A stretch of 49,115 nucleotides of DNA from positions 1-49,115 of the forward strand of contig CAMDNC010000003.1 in assembly GCA_945902755.1 (NCBI GenBank). Reading direction: 5' to 3'. Below are positions 3,656 to 17,209 of this stretch, in pieces. Both the position numbers and the translations under genes were made by a program. Each line of letters begins with the position of its first letter. Position 1 is the stretch's first letter. The notes under the pieces were generated by a model that saw only the letters and a program-made list of their open reading frames with translations, searched no databases and was not told the origin of the DNA. Source of the stretch: Flavipsychrobacter stenotrophus (GTDB lineage Bacteria > Bacteroidota > Bacteroidia > Chitinophagales > Chitinophagaceae).

Positions 3656-4309
3656 TTATTTAGCGACTGTTTTGGGGAGTTTTTTCATCATCTCTGCCTG
3701 TAAGTAAAGCTGATACCGATAATTAGCTGCTCCTTCTAATATCTGCACTATGGCTTCCATTTCTTGATCTCGACCGGTGGGGTCATAATTTTGACGAAGG
3801 TTATTGTTGAACATCAAACCAACTGACTGCCAAACAACGGCAGAAAAACCGCTTTTTAGTTCGCGAATTATGCTATAACAATTTTGACCTGTTTGTCGGT
3901 TAATCAATTTTATGAGGACGTGCCCTTGATTGACTGTTAGATTTTTGAGTGGTTCTTTGAAAGATGCATCGAGTTGTCGATCAATTTCTTTGAGATACCG
4001 CCTTCTATCTCTGCGACCATCGAGCGTGTCGAGTGTATGGCTTACGTCTTTAAGAATGGCTGCGGCAGTAATTGCATATGGATATGCAATGTATATATCT
4101 CGGCGCAGCCTGTCGCGCCGAAGTCTGTCGGTAGGATTGATGAAAGTACTGGTAATTTCCACCTCTGGAAGAAAAGCGGTAGGATAGTTGATGCCATTGA
4201 TCACAGTCGCACCTACCCTGATGGTATCGTAAATGGAATATTGTGCCAAAGTAGTTTGGGATACAAACACTGCAAACACAAAGAGGCGAAATTTAAGCAG
4301 GTATCTCAT
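3656..4309 (-). CDS. DUF4294 domain-containing protein
   Basis: Signal peptide; VNGINYPTAFLPEVEITS; YPYA..., LTVNQGHVLIKLINRQTGQNCYSIIRELKSGFSAVVWQ as recalled for the Bacteroidota DUF4294 family. Confidence 0.75.
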   Translation of the reverse strand: MRYLLKFRLFVFAVFVSQTTLAQYSIYDTIRVGATVINGINYPTAFLPEVEITSTFINPTDRLRRDRLRRDIYIAYPYAITAAAILKDVSHTLDTLDGRRDRRRYLKEIDRQLDASFKEPLKNLTVNQGHVLIKLINRQTGQNCYSIIRELKSGFSAVVWQSVGLMFNNNLRQNYDPTGRDQEMEAIVQILEGAANYRYQLYLQAEMMKKLPKTVAK

Positions 4310-4456
4310 GAAATTACAATGTAAATTTCTTGATTTTTGTTGATATTAAACCTAAACCAATGATAAAATATTGCAAACAAAGAATGTTAATTTTAGAGTT
4401 ACACCAAATTATACCTGTCAGAGTGACTAATGGTAGTCTAACTTTGCCAAATAAAT

Positions 4457-4687
4457 ATGAAGAAGCTAATATTGACTATAATGGGAAGCGTGGCGTTGAT
4501 GACGTCTTGCAAAAAAGAAGTGAAAACTCAGTTGTCTAAAGAAGAAATACAAAAGCGAATAGACTCTATTTCGAGCGAAAAGATATTAGAAGTAGAGGAA
4601 TATGCAAAGAAGGAACTAGAATACAGAATAAAAATTGAAGTGAAAGTAAAAGCTGACTCGATAAGAGAAGCAACGAAAAATAAATAA
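4457..4687 (+). CDS. Small lipoprotein, charged coiled-coil-like
   Basis: MKKLILTIMGSVALMTSCKKEV: lipobox MTSC; remainder K/E rich. Confidence 0.65.
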   Translation: MKKLILTIMGSVALMTSCKKEVKTQLSKEEIQKRIDSISSEKILEVEEYAKKELEYRIKIEVKVKADSIREATKNK

Positions 4688-4730
4688 AAGGTAGCGTATT
4701 GTGGAGCATATAAGGCTAAAAAAATGAAAC

Positions 4731-5144
4731 GTGAGAATAGAACTGCAACCAAAACCAATTGTATACTTTGACGGTGTTTGTAACTTGTGTAATAATGCCG
4801 TGCGATTTATTATGAAACATGACAAAAAACAGCGGTTTTTGTTTGCCACTCTTTCATCAGATGCAGGTAAAAATGCAATGGAACAAGTGAATAAAGGTGG
4901 CAGAAGAATTGACAGCGTAATAATCTACTACAGAGGGAAATATTACACCAAATCAAGTGCAGTACTCCTTGCATTTAAACTACTGGGAGGCGCATGGCAA
5001 CTGTTATATCCATTTATTATTTTGCCAGCATTTATCAGAAATGCTGTGTATGACTGGATAGGTAAAAACAGGTATAAGTGGTTTGGTAAAAAAAACGAAT
5101 GTACCCTACCCTCCGCCGAAATAATGAAGCGGTTTGTAAACTAA
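4731..5144 (+). CDS. Thiol-disulfide oxidoreductase, DCC family (DUF393)
   Basis: VYFDGVCNLCNNAVRFIMKHD contains the DxxCxxC motif; GTG start. Confidence 0.85.
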   Translation: MRIELQPKPIVYFDGVCNLCNNAVRFIMKHDKKQRFLFATLSSDAGKNAMEQVNKGGRRIDSVIIYYRGKYYTKSSAVLLAFKLLGGAWQLLYPFIILPAFIRNAVYDWIGKNRYKWFGKKNECTLPSAEIMKRFVN

Positions 5145-5200
5145 GAATTAGTGAAATAAATTTCACCCTTCAAAAAAGTATATCTACCTTAAATTTGGAT

Positions 5201-6655
5201 ATGGCAAACCTGAGATTATATTCAATTTTGTTGTTACTCACGTTCGTTTTCTTGGACGTAAGTGGGCAAGAAGTAACGTATACTGAATATGAAAAATTTG
5301 ACAATAGAACTGATGCCTATACTGTGGTAGGTATGACAGGTGGCCACCTGTATACGTATTTGCGAAATGAGGAAGGCTCAAGATTAGAATCCTACAACGA
5401 CTCGATGAAAAAAGTTGCGACGATTCTGTTAGACTTTTTTCCGCAGCGAATATATCAGGTTAAATTCATAACGTACCCAGATAAGATGATGGTGCTCTAT
5501 CAGGCACTAGAAAGTAATAAAGTAGTGCAATATGCGGCGCTGCTAGACGCAAGTGGGCTGCTAATAAACAAACCAATAGAAATAGGCCATACCAAAACCG
5601 GGATTTTCGGTCCTACAAAAAACTATTATTCATCATCGGTATCTGACGATAAGAAAACGATACTGGTGTATACCGCTGCTGATAAGAAAAATGAAATTTC
5701 TTTTGAAGGGAAATGGCTGGATGACAAAGGTGTAGTTTTCAAACGTTGTAAAGCAAGTTTTAAAACTGAGAACTTGCCTGAGCATGGAGAGGTGAATGTA
5801 GCTAACGATGGCACTGTTTACATGGCGGCCTATACCCCTATTGGGGCACAAGACTATACTGACCAGTATTGGATACTAAAATTAAAGCCAGGGTCGCTTA
5901 AGTTTGAGGGTAAGGAACTACAGTTAGGTGACAAATTTGCGACAGGAGGTTATACCAAAATAGACAACGTAAATAACAAGGTTTACTTCGGAGGATTTTA
6001 CTCGGATAAAAAGAACGGTAGATTTGATGGTTTTATCTATGCTGCTTTCGATATTGCTACTGACACCTTCAGTACCAGACGGTTTATACCATTTGATAAC
6101 GAAATAATAAGTAAGGCCAATAGCAACAAAAGAAACTACTCATTTGATAACTACATGGTGCGCCAATTAATTGTAAAAAATGATGGAGGTTTTGTATTGG
6201 TAGCAGAGTCGCAGTATGTAACTATGCGCAGCAGTTTCACTCCTGGATTTGGGTATTATTCGTTTTACAGTCCGTATATGAATTCATCAGTAAGAGAGTA
6301 TCACTATAACGATATAATGGCGTTGGCTTATAATAATGAAGGTGTGCGAGAGTGGAATACTATCATACCCAAACAACAGTACTCGCAGGAAGATGATGGT
6401 GTTTTTTCTTCGTATGCTTTACTAAATACTGGAGGAACGCTAGCATTTCTTTTCAATGATTTTGACACACGACACTCGAGAATACAATTGGCAACTGTAA
6501 CTGCTGATGGAAAATCGGATATACATGGACTTACTGCCGAAGGCAATGATTATCCTGATTGGTTGCCAAAATCGGCTAAACAAGTATCCGGCCGAGTGAT
6601 GGTGGTGCCCTGCTTCTACAGAAAACAGATATGCTTTGCGAGGGTTAGTTTTTAG
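5201..6655 (+). CDS. Hypothetical secreted protein
   Basis: Long ORF with signal peptide MANLRLYSILLLLTFVFLDVSGQEV; no family recognised. Confidence 0.75.
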   Translation: MANLRLYSILLLLTFVFLDVSGQEVTYTEYEKFDNRTDAYTVVGMTGGHLYTYLRNEEGSRLESYNDSMKKVATILLDFFPQRIYQVKFITYPDKMMVLYQALESNKVVQYAALLDASGLLINKPIEIGHTKTGIFGPTKNYYSSSVSDDKKTILVYTAADKKNEISFEGKWLDDKGVVFKRCKASFKTENLPEHGEVNVANDGTVYMAAYTPIGAQDYTDQYWILKLKPGSLKFEGKELQLGDKFATGGYTKIDNVNNKVYFGGFYSDKKNGRFDGFIYAAFDIATDTFSTRRFIPFDNEIISKANSNKRNYSFDNYMVRQLIVKNDGGFVLVAESQYVTMRSSFTPGFGYYSFYSPYMNSSVREYHYNDIMALAYNNEGVREWNTIIPKQQYSQEDDGVFSSYALLNTGGTLAFLFNDFDTRHSRIQLATVTADGKSDIHGLTAEGNDYPDWLPKSAKQVSGRVMVVPCFYRKQICFARVSF

Positions 6656-6811
6656 ATAGCCATATAGTCATTCTCTAGAATTGGCGAAGCTTAACAAAGA
6701 TGTGTGAATTTAAAACACTGTTCAACACAAAATATCACAAGTAAGTGTTTAGTTGCTCCCGTTTATTGGCTACTAAGTATTGTAAGTGAAGTTTGTAGGG
6801 AACAGAAATGT

Positions 6812-8224
6812 CTAACGTGTTTTTGAGATTCCACCTTGGTAGACTGACATGTATATGTTTTTGTTCTCGAGATAAAGCAAACTACCATTGGCATCCCACC
6901 GCGGTTTGATCTTAAATCTTGTAAAGGGCGCTCCAGATAAATCGTTATAGTCATCGTTAAAAATGGTGCCATACTGCCGCAGTAGGGAACCATACCAAAG
7001 CATGGATTCGTAGCCCCTCAAGACCATTTCAGATGGAACACCTGCAAATTCGTTTTTGTAGGTTCTTTTTAAAGCGTTGACCAAATTGCTGTCGGCCGAT
7101 TCATAGTTGGACGAACTGGTTACATTAACTGCAAGATTCTTATAACTATTGTTTTTACGTAAGCTTGGAAGATCACTCCAGGTGGGCATTCCATAAACAT
7201 TGAAATGTGTGTTAGGGAAGTACTTGGAGAGTGCTTTAAGTAGGCTGTCTGCAAACGACTGATTGAGAATACTAACTACCACGGCATTGGGCCGAGTTGT
7301 ATCAAACACAGTCATTAATTCTGCCTTGGTAGGCAATTTATTGCACAATAATTTACGAAAGGTAACATCACTATATAGATCATTGAGCATGTATAGCGCA
7401 GCGTTGTCATCGGCAAGGGCAGATGTGCGATAGAGTAATGCTACATTTTGTCCTGCATATTTTGCAGAAACATCGTCGATTATGTACTCACAATGGCTTT
7501 TTACAGACGGCAAAAGCATTGTAAAATATTGGTTGTCTTTGACCCATGCATCATAATTGGTAAGTGCAGATACGAAATTGATTCTTTTTTTACGGGCGTA
7601 TCCAGCTAATACAGGAATATCATGTTGTTCAACCGCACCGATAATGAGATCGGTGGAATCGAGTCGTCGCCTATTGATTAGCATTTCGGGAGATTCATTA
7701 AACGAACCTGCATCGTGAATGTGTATATCTAATTTTGCACCCGCTCTCCTGAGGCTATCGGCAGCCAACTTAACCCCTTGGTAAAAAGCCAAACCGTCAG
7801 CAGCTTTATCTGGCACTTTGTCTTTGAAAGTTACTGACTCACCTCTTACCAGCTCGTCGAGGTACAAAGGTAATATCACACTTATTCTGTATTTTTTCTT
7901 GAATTTAGAATCAGGATAAGCTATTTCTTGTTTTCTTTTTCCAGAGGTTTTTTTCTGTTGTGATGCCCGTTTATCATTATCGATTTCTGTAGATGTGGAA
8001 ACTGACGAATAATTATCTTTATTTTTATTTTTCCTGCGCTTTTTACTTTGCTTGTTGTTCTCCTCTTCGCTAATTGATTGATTAGTACCAGCAACTTCTG
8101 TTCTATTTGACTGTCTTGATTTCTTTTTGCCGAACAATTGAGCGTGGGAAGAGAATGCCAAACTAAGTAGCATAAATGAAAAACCTACAACTAACAAGAC
8201 AATCTTATTAAACCTAAAATTCAT
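6812..8224 (-). CDS. Type 1 periplasmic-binding-fold (ABC substrate-binding-like) protein
   Basis: Signal peptide; basic low-complexity linker (KKRRKNKNKD); YRISVILPLYLDEL...FYQGVKLAADSLRRAGAKLDIHIHDAGS...DLIIGAVEQHDIPVLAGYARKKRINFVSAL. Confidence 0.75.
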   Translation of the reverse strand: MNFRFNKIVLLVVGFSFMLLSLAFSSHAQLFGKKKSRQSNRTEVAGTNQSISEEENNKQSKKRRKNKNKDNYSSVSTSTEIDNDKRASQQKKTSGKRKQEIAYPDSKFKKKYRISVILPLYLDELVRGESVTFKDKVPDKAADGLAFYQGVKLAADSLRRAGAKLDIHIHDAGSFNESPEMLINRRRLDSTDLIIGAVEQHDIPVLAGYARKKRINFVSALTNYDAWVKDNQYFTMLLPSVKSHCEYIIDDVSAKYAGQNVALLYRTSALADDNAALYMLNDLYSDVTFRKLLCNKLPTKAELMTVFDTTRPNAVVVSILNQSFADSLLKALSKYFPNTHFNVYGMPTWSDLPSLRKNNSYKNLAVNVTSSSNYESADSNLVNALKRTYKNEFAGVPSEMVLRGYESMLWYGSLLRQYGTIFNDDYNDLSGAPFTRFKIKPRWDANGSLLYLENKNIYMSVYQGGISKTR

Positions 8225-8276: not shown

Positions 8277-9476
8277 TTATCCCCTTCTGGATGTTTTTAT
8301 GAACATCATTTTTCTTTCGATTTTCCCTTTAGTTAAGTACTTTTTAAGAAAATCTTTCTGCTCATTGAGTATGCTATTGGCTTGTTTCATGGATTTTTCC
8401 ATGGTAACAATCATAACATCTAGTTTATCATACTTGCCAAAAATAGCTTTTATGCTTTTTTCTGCTTTCCGCATTTTAGTTTCGGCATTCGTGAGCATTT
8501 CTTGAATATGAGCATCGGTTTTGGCTGGCGTAAACTGTTTATTTCTAAACTCAATAAATGTGTTGAGGTCGTTTGTACCTTCGTTAAACTCTGTAACAGC
8601 GGCATTGTAAATATCTACTATTTCATTTTGCTGGCTTATAACCTCATTTTTCTTTGACACCTCTACAAAACTTTTGATCTTGGATAGCCTGTCATAAATC
8701 ACAGCGTTATTGATTCCGTTTTTCTCGATTCTGTCTATTTCAGTTTCGAAACGTTCTACTTCTGTTTGGCGTTCAAATTGAGCGATAGAATCGATGTAAT
8801 GGAATATATTAGCATCTTTTGTGTGGGCTGACGTTAGATCTGAGAATTGCCTGTATGAAACTGGACGATCTAATAATTGCCACATGGGATCGAAAGGCAT
8901 ATGCGTCTTGATGAGTGATTCGGGGATTGCTTTAAAGAATTCGTTACTAATCTTACTGACAAATTTATTGTTTTCAATATATCCAGAACCCCAAGTAGGG
9001 TCAACCAACTGCCACTTGGTTGCAACCTTCACCACGCACCAGCCATGTGGTATAAAAGAAGTAAAACCATTCTGACGAGTATACCCAACTACAATATGTG
9101 CATTAAGACCACATTTTATGCACAAATCTTGAAAAACGGCAGCATAGTTTTCGCAGATGCCTTTGTGAGTTTTTAATACCCGAGCTATTTTATCTTCCTG
9201 TTTTTCGTTGAAATTGATTGCAAACATGTTTTCTACGTCATATTCGAAGTTTGTAGCGGTCCATATAAAAATGGCTCTAGCTTTTTCGTCATCAGTACTA
9301 AAGTTTGCGTTTATGTAATTGGCAATATCCTGTGTTTTTTTTGTTTTATCGGTGGGTATTGCAAGTGCGATTTTATCGATAGCAGTATAATCTGCAGTGA
9401 GATTTTGTCCCAGTGCGGTAAGTGAAATTGAAAAAGATATAAGCACTATATTCAATATGGGAGATAGTAATTTCAT
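8277..9476 (-). CDS. Secreted transglutaminase-like domain protein
   Basis: RVLKTHKGICENYAAVFQDLCIKCGLNAHIVVGYTR...HGWCVVKVATKWQLVDPTWGSGY: Cys-His-Asp transglutaminase core. Confidence 0.85.
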   Translation of the reverse strand: MKLLSPILNIVLISFSISLTALGQNLTADYTAIDKIALAIPTDKTKKTQDIANYINANFSTDDEKARAIFIWTATNFEYDVENMFAINFNEKQEDKIARVLKTHKGICENYAAVFQDLCIKCGLNAHIVVGYTRQNGFTSFIPHGWCVVKVATKWQLVDPTWGSGYIENNKFVSKISNEFFKAIPESLIKTHMPFDPMWQLLDRPVSYRQFSDLTSAHTKDANIFHYIDSIAQFERQTEVERFETEIDRIEKNGINNAVIYDRLSKIKSFVEVSKKNEVISQQNEIVDIYNAAVTEFNEGTNDLNTFIEFRNKQFTPAKTDAHIQEMLTNAETKMRKAEKSIKAIFGKYDKLDVMIVTMEKSMKQANSILNEQKDFLKKYLTKGKIERKMMFIKTSRRG

Positions 9477-14097: not shown

Positions 14098-14466
14098 TTA
14101 CTTTTTCCTTCTTACTCTGAGTATAATATCAGAATATTCATTAGCACGCTTTACTAATACTGGTGTATTGGTTTTTTCAGACATCCTGAGTAACTCCAAG
14201 TATTCGGGAGCTGCATTCTTGGGTATTTTGTAAAACCTTGCTGACTCATTGAAGTTAACCTCTATATATGCATCATCACCAGCAGGCGGGTTGATAGCTG
14301 CTACAGTAAGGGCATACTCTACAGGTACTTTACCATTATTGTCAACTTTATTCTTTTGTACCAATGCGCAAGATGGAAATGCAATAGCCAGAAAAAATAA
14401 ACCCAACATGTATGTGGTACAAGTTGAGTTTACAAACAATTTACTAAACGACTTTTTTATGGACAT
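14098..14466 (-). CDS. Small lipoprotein resembling a protein-glutaminase pro-domain (candidate inhibitor/immunity protein)
   Basis: Lipobox AFPSC; LTVAAINPPAGDDAYIEVNFNESARFYKIP resembles VVTVADMNGVEGSSAIEVVFNENTEFFTVN in the upstream gene; ATG overlaps the stop of that gene (ATGTCCATAA). Confidence 0.75.
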   Translation of the reverse strand: MSIKKSFSKLFVNSTCTTYMLGLFFLAIAFPSCALVQKNKVDNNGKVPVEYALTVAAINPPAGDDAYIEVNFNESARFYKIPKNAAPEYLELLRMSEKTNTPVLVKRANEYSDIILRVRRKK

Positions 14467-15578
14467 GTAATTAAGTTCCTGTAATTGTAAAGGGTATTGT
14501 TTGTGGCAGAAAAAGTAGGATCTGTAGAGAATACTAAACCAGATGTACCAGAAGGAGCATAAGAAGCTGTAGGGCGGATGTTATACATCGTAACCTTTGG
14601 TATGAAGGAACCAGAGCATACCGGATTTTCTTGTGCATGTAACCACACAGACAAGAGAACAGGTTGATTAAACATTGCGGGGTCAAATACATAAGCTTTA
14701 GGTCCGGTAGGAGTTTTTACTGTAACTAATGGCGCAACATGATACCACCAGCGAATGCAGCAACCACCCCATTTTTGGCCTTGCACAGACAACTTGTAGG
14801 TTGAGGTAGGAGTGGCGAAACTGAATACTTTTTTAGTTCCATATTTATATCTTTTATTAATAATCCAACACATTTTGTGGGCGCGAGCATAACAACCATC
14901 TATACAGTATTGGAATGGGATACAGTAATCAATAGCATAGGGACCGGGTATAGCACAGCATTGTTTAGCTATGTAATTGAACATGAGTTGAGCTGTAGCA
15001 AAATCTGGTATTAGATTATTTAGTCCTGTGTCTGATAAATTGATTGTCCCTAGCTCTGACGGGTTGTCAATAACTTCGTCGGTAATAGTAGATGCTCTCA
15101 ATGATACAGCTGTCTCAGCACCTTTGTCTAAAACACGTCCACTTAGTGCTTCGGCCTGCTGACCTGTGGCATATTCGGCTTTTAGCAACGTACCCTTCCA
15201 AGGATTGAAAGATATTTGCAAAGGTTTGCCGTTGCTAAAAGCTTCTTTTACAACAGCTACAGTTGCAGGGTCATTAACTGTAAAGAATTCCGTGTTTTCA
15301 TTAAATACTACCTCAATTGCTGAACTACCTTCAACACCATTCATGTCAGCCACAGTTACAACACTAGTGAGAGTACGTTGAGGTTCGTTTTTACCTACGT
15401 TGTTATTCAATGCGGCACTATCATCGGTAGGAGCATAACAATTTGTTGTAGTAACTTTTGAACTGTTCTCCCCCTTTTTATTGCAGGAACTAAAAGTAAA
15501 AGAATAACCCATAAAGGCAACCAAAGTAACAACAGAGGCCAGTTTGGATATACGATTGAACATAAATTTGGGATGCAT
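14457..15578 (-). CDS. Lipoprotein with pro-region and protein-glutaminase (protein deamidase)-like catalytic domain
   Basis: GYSFTFSSCNKKG lipobox; pro-region IEVVFNENTEFFTVN; catalytic motifs DGCYARAHKM, CCIRWWYHVAPLV, AYVFDPAMF matching the Cys-His-Asp arrangement of the Chryseobacterium-type protein-glutaminase. Start uncertain (15605, 15578 or 15563). Confidence 0.8.
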   Translation of the reverse strand: MHPKFMFNRISKLASVVTLVAFMGYSFTFSSCNKKGENSSKVTTTNCYAPTDDSAALNNNVGKNEPQRTLTSVVTVADMNGVEGSSAIEVVFNENTEFFTVNDPATVAVVKEAFSNGKPLQISFNPWKGTLLKAEYATGQQAEALSGRVLDKGAETAVSLRASTITDEVIDNPSELGTINLSDTGLNNLIPDFATAQLMFNYIAKQCCAIPGPYAIDYCIPFQYCIDGCYARAHKMCWIINKRYKYGTKKVFSFATPTSTYKLSVQGQKWGGCCIRWWYHVAPLVTVKTPTGPKAYVFDPAMFNQPVLLSVWLHAQENPVCSGSFIPKVTMYNIRPTASYAPSGTSGLVFSTDPTFSATNNTLYNYRNLITCP

Positions 15579-15748
15579 AATGTCCTTGTATTTGATGATT
15601 GACAAAACTATTTAACTCTAATGTACGCAGCTTTTTTCTATAAATCAACAAATAGTAGATTTTTTATTTTTTCGGGCTATCACCTAGTACTATTCACAAA
15701 AATCATTAACTTTAATTGATCATAGATTTCACATACTCATTTCTGGTT

Positions 15749-17209
15749 ATGAAAAACACTATTACAATAGCTTTATTTTTATTTCTTGGGTTGAGCGCTA
15801 ATGCGCAGTACAAGAAAAAACATATGACTGTTGAAGGTCATAATCGATTTATAAGCGCATTATTACAGCAAAACAATGTAGAAAACAGTAAGGCTAAAGC
15901 AACCGCTGGAGTACCCACACAACGTGTGATAGCGCAAAGTACGAGAGACAATGCATTAGGAACGCTTTCGGACTCAGTGAAACTTAAATATAGCGGTATG
16001 AGAAAGTCAGCATATGACTACAACAACATGTTGTTTGCTTACAATTATACCTACAGCACATCTCCGATGTTTGATTATGCAGGCATTTTTACAGTACCTC
16101 AAGTAAAGTATGATACTTATTTGCATTGGACAATGGATCCGTTCAGTTTGCCTTCATTTGTATTTTATGAGTCTAATATTGCGGCTTATGATACTAACAG
16201 TAACCAAACTAGCTTTCAGGAAATATTCCCCGACACATTAAATGATGATCGTAAATACTTCAACACATTTAATACTAACAACACTATAAACAGTGGATTA
16301 TGGACAAACTTTAATACTGGTATCCCAGATAGTGCTTACAAACAGTTTTTTAGCTACGGAACTACAGGTAAGCTGATAAAAGATAGCGTTTACGAATACC
16401 ACATGGGGACTTGGAAACAAGTAGCAAAAACAACCTACTCCTATAGCGGCACGGGGAATTTACTGCAGATTGACCATTTTGCAAATCTAACCGACACGAC
16501 TTTTTCGTTACCACTCATACAGCAGTTGAAATATGTAAATACCTATGACGCTAGTGGTAGGCTTTTGACAGTGCAAACAAGTTTTTATGATGGTACTGTA
16601 TTAGGAGAATATGTAAGGGACACTTTTAGTTATAGTGGTTCATTGACCTTCCATAACTCTTGGAAACAACACCAATATGACCCAATACATGGCACTTGGT
16701 GGCCACAATACAATATGTCTAAACATATTACAGGCTCAAAACCAGATACGGTGTTTCATAAAGGATGGGATAGTATTGCAAATGCTTGGTCGCCTACATC
16801 CATGCAGATAGTAGGTTATAACACCAATAATGACCCAGATACTATTCTGCAATACCTGTACAATTGGACTTCATATTCGTTAACTCCAGACTATACTACT
16901 GTGTATTATTATGAAACATTTTTGGACACAACTCCTGTATTGAGCAATAATAATCTGCCTACTATTGAAGGATCTAGAATACTGCTATATCCCAACCCAG
17001 CAACAACAGAAATTCACGTAGCACTTGTAGAAAAAACTAATAAACTTAGTGCAACAATTTACAATATGAATGGCCAACTGCTATCGAAGCAAGAATGGTA
17101 TAATACTATTCATGAAACTTTGGACGCTAGCTTCTTACCATCAGGTGTCTATATTGTAGAAATTGCCAGTGACAACAATAAATATACCAAACAGTTTATA
17201 AAGCAATAA
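15749..17209 (+). CDS. Secreted protein with T9SS type A sorting domain
   Basis: MKNTITIALFLFLGLSANAQYKKKH; C-terminal LLYPNPATTEIHVALVE...LPSGVYIVEIASDNNKYTKQFIKQ. Confidence 0.85.
   Translation: MKNTITIALFLFLGLSANAQYKKKHMTVEGHNRFISALLQQNNVENSKAKATAGVPTQRVIAQSTRDNALGTLSDSVKLKYSGMRKSAYDYNNMLFAYNYTYSTSPMFDYAGIFTVPQVKYDTYLHWTMDPFSLPSFVFYESNIAAYDTNSNQTSFQEIFPDTLNDDRKYFNTFNTNNTINSGLWTNFNTGIPDSAYKQFFSYGTTGKLIKDSVYEYHMGTWKQVAKTTYSYSGTGNLLQIDHFANLTDTTFSLPLIQQLKYVNTYDASGRLLTVQTSFYDGTVLGEYVRDTFSYSGSLTFHNSWKQHQYDPIHGTWWPQYNMSKHITGSKPDTVFHKGWDSIANAWSPTSMQIVGYNTNNDPDTILQYLYNWTSYSLTPDYTTVYYYETFLDTTPVLSNNNLPTIEGSRILLYPNPATTEIHVALVEKTNKLSATIYNMNGQLLSKQEWYNTIHETLDASFLPSGVYIVEIASDNNKYTKQFIKQ

Follow-up and report, generated by a model that had tools for sequence, protein, structure and literature searches.

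The window analysed here, the whole 49,115-nucleotide stretch of Flavipsychrobacter stenotrophus DNA, carries on its minus strand a gene for a protein-glutaminase precursor of 373 amino acids, P0001 (14457..15578). It overlaps by 10 bp the gene for a protein of 122 amino acids, P0002 (14098..14466, minus strand), which by sequence and predicted fold is a free-standing homologue of the protein-glutaminase propeptide. Protein-glutaminases convert protein glutamines to glutamates and serve as industrial food enzymes. The P0001 reading frame begins with an ATG at 15578 and ends with a stop at 14457, and a TTG at 15605 is another possible start. A first-pass annotation had placed the frame at 14457-15578, and all of the motifs that it quoted were found in the translation; the enzyme's own pro-domain and the overlapping downstream gene were both absent from it.

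On the evidence of PF18626, PDB matches and an AlphaFold2 model, P0001 consists of a signal peptide with a lipobox, a linker, a pro-domain and a catalytic domain, in this order, the last two being the only domains after the signal peptide. The protein scored 89.7 bits against Pfam PF18626 Gln_deamidase_2 (cut-off 25, E 1.7e-25) and matched the protein-glutaminases in the PDB at E 2.5e-19 to 6e-18. Against NCBIfam NF040782, the Chryseobacterium-type equivalog, it reached 79.6 bits and stayed below the cut-off of 250; P0001 is thus a family member, not a Chryseobacterium-type equivalog. With the C. proteolyticum enzyme (3a54, 3a56, 2zk9, and 2ksv) and with FBPG of Flavobacterium sp. 316 (8z3i) it has in common the Pfam family, the Cys-His-Asp triad and the layout of pro-domain and catalytic domain, at an identity of about 25% over the full alignment and 32-35% over the catalytic domain aligned by structure. 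From sequence and model, P0001 is an ordinary member of the known protein-glutaminase family (EC 3.5.1.44), with predicted activity. An enzyme of this type is present in a single copy in the source genome, and the nearest named record, 91% identical, belongs to the Bacteroidota metagenome-assembled genome (MAG) L035, among MAGs labelled Taibaiella and Flavipsychrobacter. In this closest relative the enzyme gene (6001-7118) shows a frame change near codon 40, the partner and the neighbours being intact; the gene may be broken, or the assembly may contain an error at this point.

The catalytic domain spans residues 186-373 (14460..15023, minus strand). The triad codons, also on the minus strand, lie at 14892-14894 (Cys229), 14739-14741 (His280) and 14682-14684 (Asp299), and these residues match Cys42, His83 and Asp103 of the mature enzyme when counted on the PDB alignment. 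Among 78 relatives, Cys229 and His280 were conserved in 78/78 and Asp299 in 77/78, so that the order and context of Cys, His and Asp proposed in the first-pass annotation are borne out by both the PDB enzymes and the relatives. The AlphaFold2 model, built with these 78 relatives, had a mean pLDDT of 83.6 and exceeded 90 across most of residues 70-150 and 190-373. Its top Foldseek matches were pro-protein-glutaminase structures (3a56, E 8e-23). A second aligner placed residues 66-373 on 8z3i (Z 29.8, 2.8 Å over 263 residues) and on residues 19-287 of 3a56 (Z 27.8), and residues 186-373 on residues 1-173 of 2zk9 (Z 23.6, 1.7 Å over 171). The superposition suggested earlier as a check therefore gave the expected fold, IPDFATAQLMF aligns with the start of the mature enzyme that it had been said to resemble, and sequence, profile and predicted fold all back the catalytic domain. 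The enzyme's own pro-domain, an OB-like domain at about residues 66-146 (15141..15383, minus strand), was delimited by superposing the model on 3a56; according to the position table, its Thr96 (15291-15293, minus strand) matches Ala47 of pro-protein-glutaminase.

Several variants of the enzyme were seen among the relatives. At L057 / L029 (107-1231) an enzyme gene that is otherwise intact and keeps its partner has Ala in place of the catalytic Asp (AYVFAPAMF). L093 carries a tandem pair of protein-glutaminase genes (4093-5286 and 5476-6582, plus strand). A protein of more than 1,000 residues in genome G293 (L012, 1-2421, minus strand) contains a protein-glutaminase domain that has the triad motifs; ahead of it lie one clear pro-like domain and perhaps another.

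The signal peptide of P0001 (15483..15578, minus strand) ends in a lipobox-like FSSC with Cys32. The first-pass annotation had contrasted this lipobox with a known enzyme that is merely secreted. The cysteine itself is real and conserved, occupying its column in 66/78 relatives (the remaining 12 have gaps). The contrast did not hold, as a lipobox-like cysteine occupies the same column in all 16 of the protein-glutaminases examined from Chryseobacterium and in most others (for example ...AALSFNAC- and ...TMLSFNSC-), and the lipobox was therefore rejected as a feature that sets P0001 apart. Surface anchoring, also proposed, is not indicated: Cys32 is followed by NKKGEN, with neither of the acidic surface-export signals C-X-K-(D/E)2 and SDDFE, which were defined in other Bacteroidota (PMC5080379). 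Because the anchor precedes the pro-domain, cleavage of the latter would release the mature enzyme untethered, as has been argued for the C10 zymogens of Bacteroides (PMC2873492).

The downstream gene P0002

P0002 has a signal peptide with a possible lipobox (PSC, Cys33) and a domain at residues 46-122 (14101-14331, minus strand). Its Ala76 (14239-14241, minus strand) matches Ala47 of the propeptide. By eye, the stretch IEVNFNESARFYKI of P0002 resembles IEVVFNENTEFFTV in the enzyme's pro-domain and IKVSFMLTAQFYEI in the crystallised propeptide. When seven neighbours were aligned with ten pro-domains by hhalign, the two families aligned end to end with a probability of 77-86%, and a profile of the seven neighbours alone, run on a small database, matched Chryseobacterium propeptides at E values down to 3e-8. 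When 177,635 PDB sequences were searched with a profile of 46 neighbours, residues 34-91 of protein-glutaminase were the sole significant match (E 1.5e-5). In the reverse direction, canonical Chryseobacterium propeptides alone, searched against 3,657 ORFs, retrieved 41 neighbours and six other non-enzyme ORFs at E <1; at least two of these six are the form that the P0002 gene takes in Chryseobacterium.

The P0002 model reached a pLDDT above 90 over the domain, and both aligners gave 3a56 as the best match (Z 11.9, 1.9 Å over 73 residues, chain positions 19-93). Unrelated OB folds scored Z 9.2 and below, and the similarity to toxin B subunits, within this range, was taken as a shared fold only, so that kinship with them was rejected. 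On sequence and model together, P0002 is a homologue of the protein-glutaminase propeptide and is predicted to have the same fold. When free-standing pro-domains and those carried by enzymes were placed in one tree (78 columns, poor resolution), the two classes separated with 4 changes compared to 44 in shuffles; the partners are therefore not recent local duplicates.

Hashizume is said to have placed residue 47 of the propeptide at the active site in 2011, and the A47Q mutant was reportedly made as a mimic of the substrate complex. PDB entry 3a54 is titled as the A47Q mutant of pro-protein-glutaminase. At the equivalent position, the 46 partners carried Ala (27), Gln (17) or Glu (2), the Chryseobacterium partners Pro, and the enzyme pro-domains Ala, Glu, Thr, Gln or Pro. 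Surrounding this position, residues F72, S75 and R77 of P0002 were invariant in the 46 partners.

Distribution of the pair and its genomic neighbours

A partner gene followed the enzyme gene directly on the same strand in 45 of the 54 loci with a near-relative enzyme, with the identical 10-bp overlap in 29. Nine loci had none; one of these stops at a contig edge, while eight Bacteroidota enzymes near P0001 lack the partner although the sequence continues past the gene. The labels of the MAGs with the pair include Bacteroidota, Chlorobiota, Acidobacteriota, Verrucomicrobiota, Planctomycetota, and Pseudomonadota, and may be wrong where they rest on a single contig. In a profile search of 294 genomes of the sampled Bacteroidota family, all seven partner copies encoded as separate genes adjoined an enzyme gene, and one further match lay within a large protein that also contains a protein-glutaminase domain. 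In Chryseobacterium, 16/16 loci had a lipoprotein of 102-106 amino acids just downstream, recognised by the partner profile (E 5e-7 to 2e-3) and separated from the enzyme gene by 67-77 bp in loci with a clear start. These partners have diverged and were found with the profile of canonical propeptides. The Chryseobacterium loci thus resemble ours in the stand-alone propeptide gene after the enzyme but differ strongly in its sequence and in lacking the overlap.

Among 42 untruncated loci, a signal-peptide-like N terminus was predicted on both proteins in 33, on neither in nine, and on only one of the two in none. The nine signal-less pairs all fall within one part of the enzyme tree and so may reflect a single event. 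They are found in L079-L085, L087, and L094 (the start of the L079 enzyme ORF is uncertain), in MAGs labelled Chlorobiaceae, Acidobacteria, Verrucomicrobia, Brocadia, Gemmataceae, and Xanthomonadales, and suggest that the two proteins stay in the cytosol or are exported in a different way. The distance matrices of enzyme and partner correlated with r 0.756, a value attained in 0 of 2000 permutations and expected from joint inheritance. In three close pairs, dN/dS was about 0.09-0.15, which indicates purifying selection. By these comparisons, enzyme and partner genes were shown to be conserved neighbours that are inherited together and, as predicted from their N termini, exported or non-exported together. 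Promoter and terminator scans at the locus gave no excess over shuffles.

Divergently upstream of the enzyme gene lies a gene for a protein of about 485 amino acids with a Sec signal and a T9SS sorting domain (15752..17209, plus strand; PF18962, 55.5 bits). It was divergently adjacent to the enzyme gene in 37 of the 39 Bacteroidota loci that have upstream sequence, including where the partner is absent, whereas it was not seen at the Chryseobacterium loci. Strong homologues occurred in exactly those 11 of the 294 family genomes that have the enzyme (Fisher 3e-20, kinship ignored; some genomes occur both among the loci and in the 294-genome set). The T9SS protein is a candidate substrate or co-secreted functional partner of the enzyme. 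Conserved glutamines did not single it out as a substrate: across 35 orthologues, only 2 of its 23 Gln were conserved at 90%, below the average residue, which leaves synteny and co-occurrence as the evidence for such a role.

Downstream of the partner, P0003 (13176 to about 14045, minus strand) is an exported protein with no Pfam or NCBIfam family. Among the relatives it accompanies the module in L035, L036, and L043, the nearest ones, and in no others, and it was therefore rejected as a third part. With its paired cysteines and a GQYAVWAVTN motif, P0003 is reminiscent of thioester domains and may contain one. Elsewhere in the window, the product of 8277-9476 (minus strand) shows by eye a transglutaminase-like Cys/His/Asp pattern (KGICENYA, HGWCVVK, WQLVDPTWG) and is a second putative cysteine enzyme, with amides or peptides as its substrates. 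No match to defence-system families was found with PADLOC, and P0001 shows only its pro- and catalytic domains after the signal peptide; an anti-phage defence system, or a polymorphic-toxin effector with its immunity protein, gains no support from these observations.

Possible roles of the free-standing propeptide

We consider it probable, from sequence, models and analogy with SpeB-Spi, that the locus encodes a zymogen and a trans-acting inhibitor or self-protection protein of the propeptide type, P0002. The zymogen would be exported with its N-terminal tether on the pro-domain side, and proteolysis between pro-domain and catalytic domain would then release the active enzyme. P0002, residing in the same compartment, would plug the active-site cleft through its S-(A/Q)-R loop, which is the counterpart of the propeptide loop around Ala47. 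The envelope proteins of the producer would thereby be shielded from deamidation, and P0002 would act on its enzyme as Spi does on SpeB. Cleavage of the propeptide raised the activity of PGB, another member of the family, 17-fold, and the cleaved propeptide appeared to remain with the enzyme during purification, which makes binding in trans plausible (PMC13139226). Three points count against an inhibitor. The enzyme already has a pro-domain of its own and does not require another one to be latent; eight close Bacteroidota enzymes have no partner; and the Gln-bearing partners could be substrates rather than dead-end inhibitors.

As the propeptides of many secreted enzymes aid folding, P0002 might instead act in trans as a propeptide chaperone or secretion aid. 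In C. proteolyticum QSH1265, a 'highly conserved hypothetical protein' with a 22-residue signal and 80 further residues (102 in all) is exported and shares the protein-glutaminase promoter, and a part in secretion was conjectured for it (PMC6132073); to judge by its size and position, it is probably the Chryseobacterium free-standing propeptide. We nevertheless regard a folding role as unlikely: the covalent pro-domain would already do this job, several enzymes have no partner gene, conservation in P0002 is highest (F72, S75, R77) in the loop that, in the zymogen, is turned towards the active site, and foreign hosts yield mature enzymes from pro-forms (PMC13139226). The loop itself invites another explanation, namely that Gln-bearing partners bind like the A47Q pro-enzyme and are slowly deamidated to Glu, upon which their affinity changes, so that the inhibitor times itself. 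The Gln of 17/46 and the Glu of 2/46 partners at the critical position would fit, as would the annotation of 3a54 as an A47Q mutant of pro-protein-glutaminase; with Ala in the window's own partner and in 27/46, and Pro in Chryseobacterium, we hold it to be quite improbable. That P0002 does not act on the enzyme at all, being a relic or a protein with another target that is paired by mere linkage, would agree with the eight close relatives without a partner, but purifying selection, conservation across several phyla, the concordance of signal peptides and the retained adjacency make it very improbable.

An inhibitor or self-protection protein derived from a propeptide, as preferred here for P0002, has parallels in known systems. 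In SpeB-Spi, a cysteine enzyme, the streptococcal C10 protease, is likewise accompanied by an adjacent separate gene for a propeptide analogue (PMC2873492); SpeB is, however, a protease, the families are unrelated, and inhibition by Spi was established experimentally whereas for P0002 we infer it. The family I29 inhibitors (CTLA-2, BCPI, and crammer) are also free-standing homologues of an enzyme propeptide (PMC4089206) but, unlike P0002, are eukaryotic, of the papain type and not OB-like, with genes that are not paired in an operon with the target enzyme. Bfp-Bfi of Bacteroides fragilis and staphopain-staphostatin combine a lipoprotein or exported cysteine enzyme with a co-transcribed small exported inhibitor (PMC2873492); those inhibitors are staphostatin-like, while P0002 resembles the propeptide of its enzyme. 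We found no description of a free-standing propeptide for protein-glutaminase in the open-access papers searched. The arrangement is thus known in kind from Spi and I29, and P0002 is a free-standing propeptide that is widely conserved and had so far gone unexplained.

A broader proposal, that a dedicated propeptide protein regulates protein-glutaminases in trans across several bacterial phyla, that the natural Gln loop of one lineage makes a self-timing substrate-inhibitor and that the pair serves as a cytosolic enzyme-immunity pair in other phyla, appears doubtful to us. The second copy of the propeptide, conserved in Chryseobacterium and in distant phyla, nonetheless leads to the concrete hypothesis that this enzyme is inhibited, or its producer protected, by a factor with a gene of its own. 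If this is true, propeptide-derived inhibitor genes would extend from the proteases to a family of deamidases.
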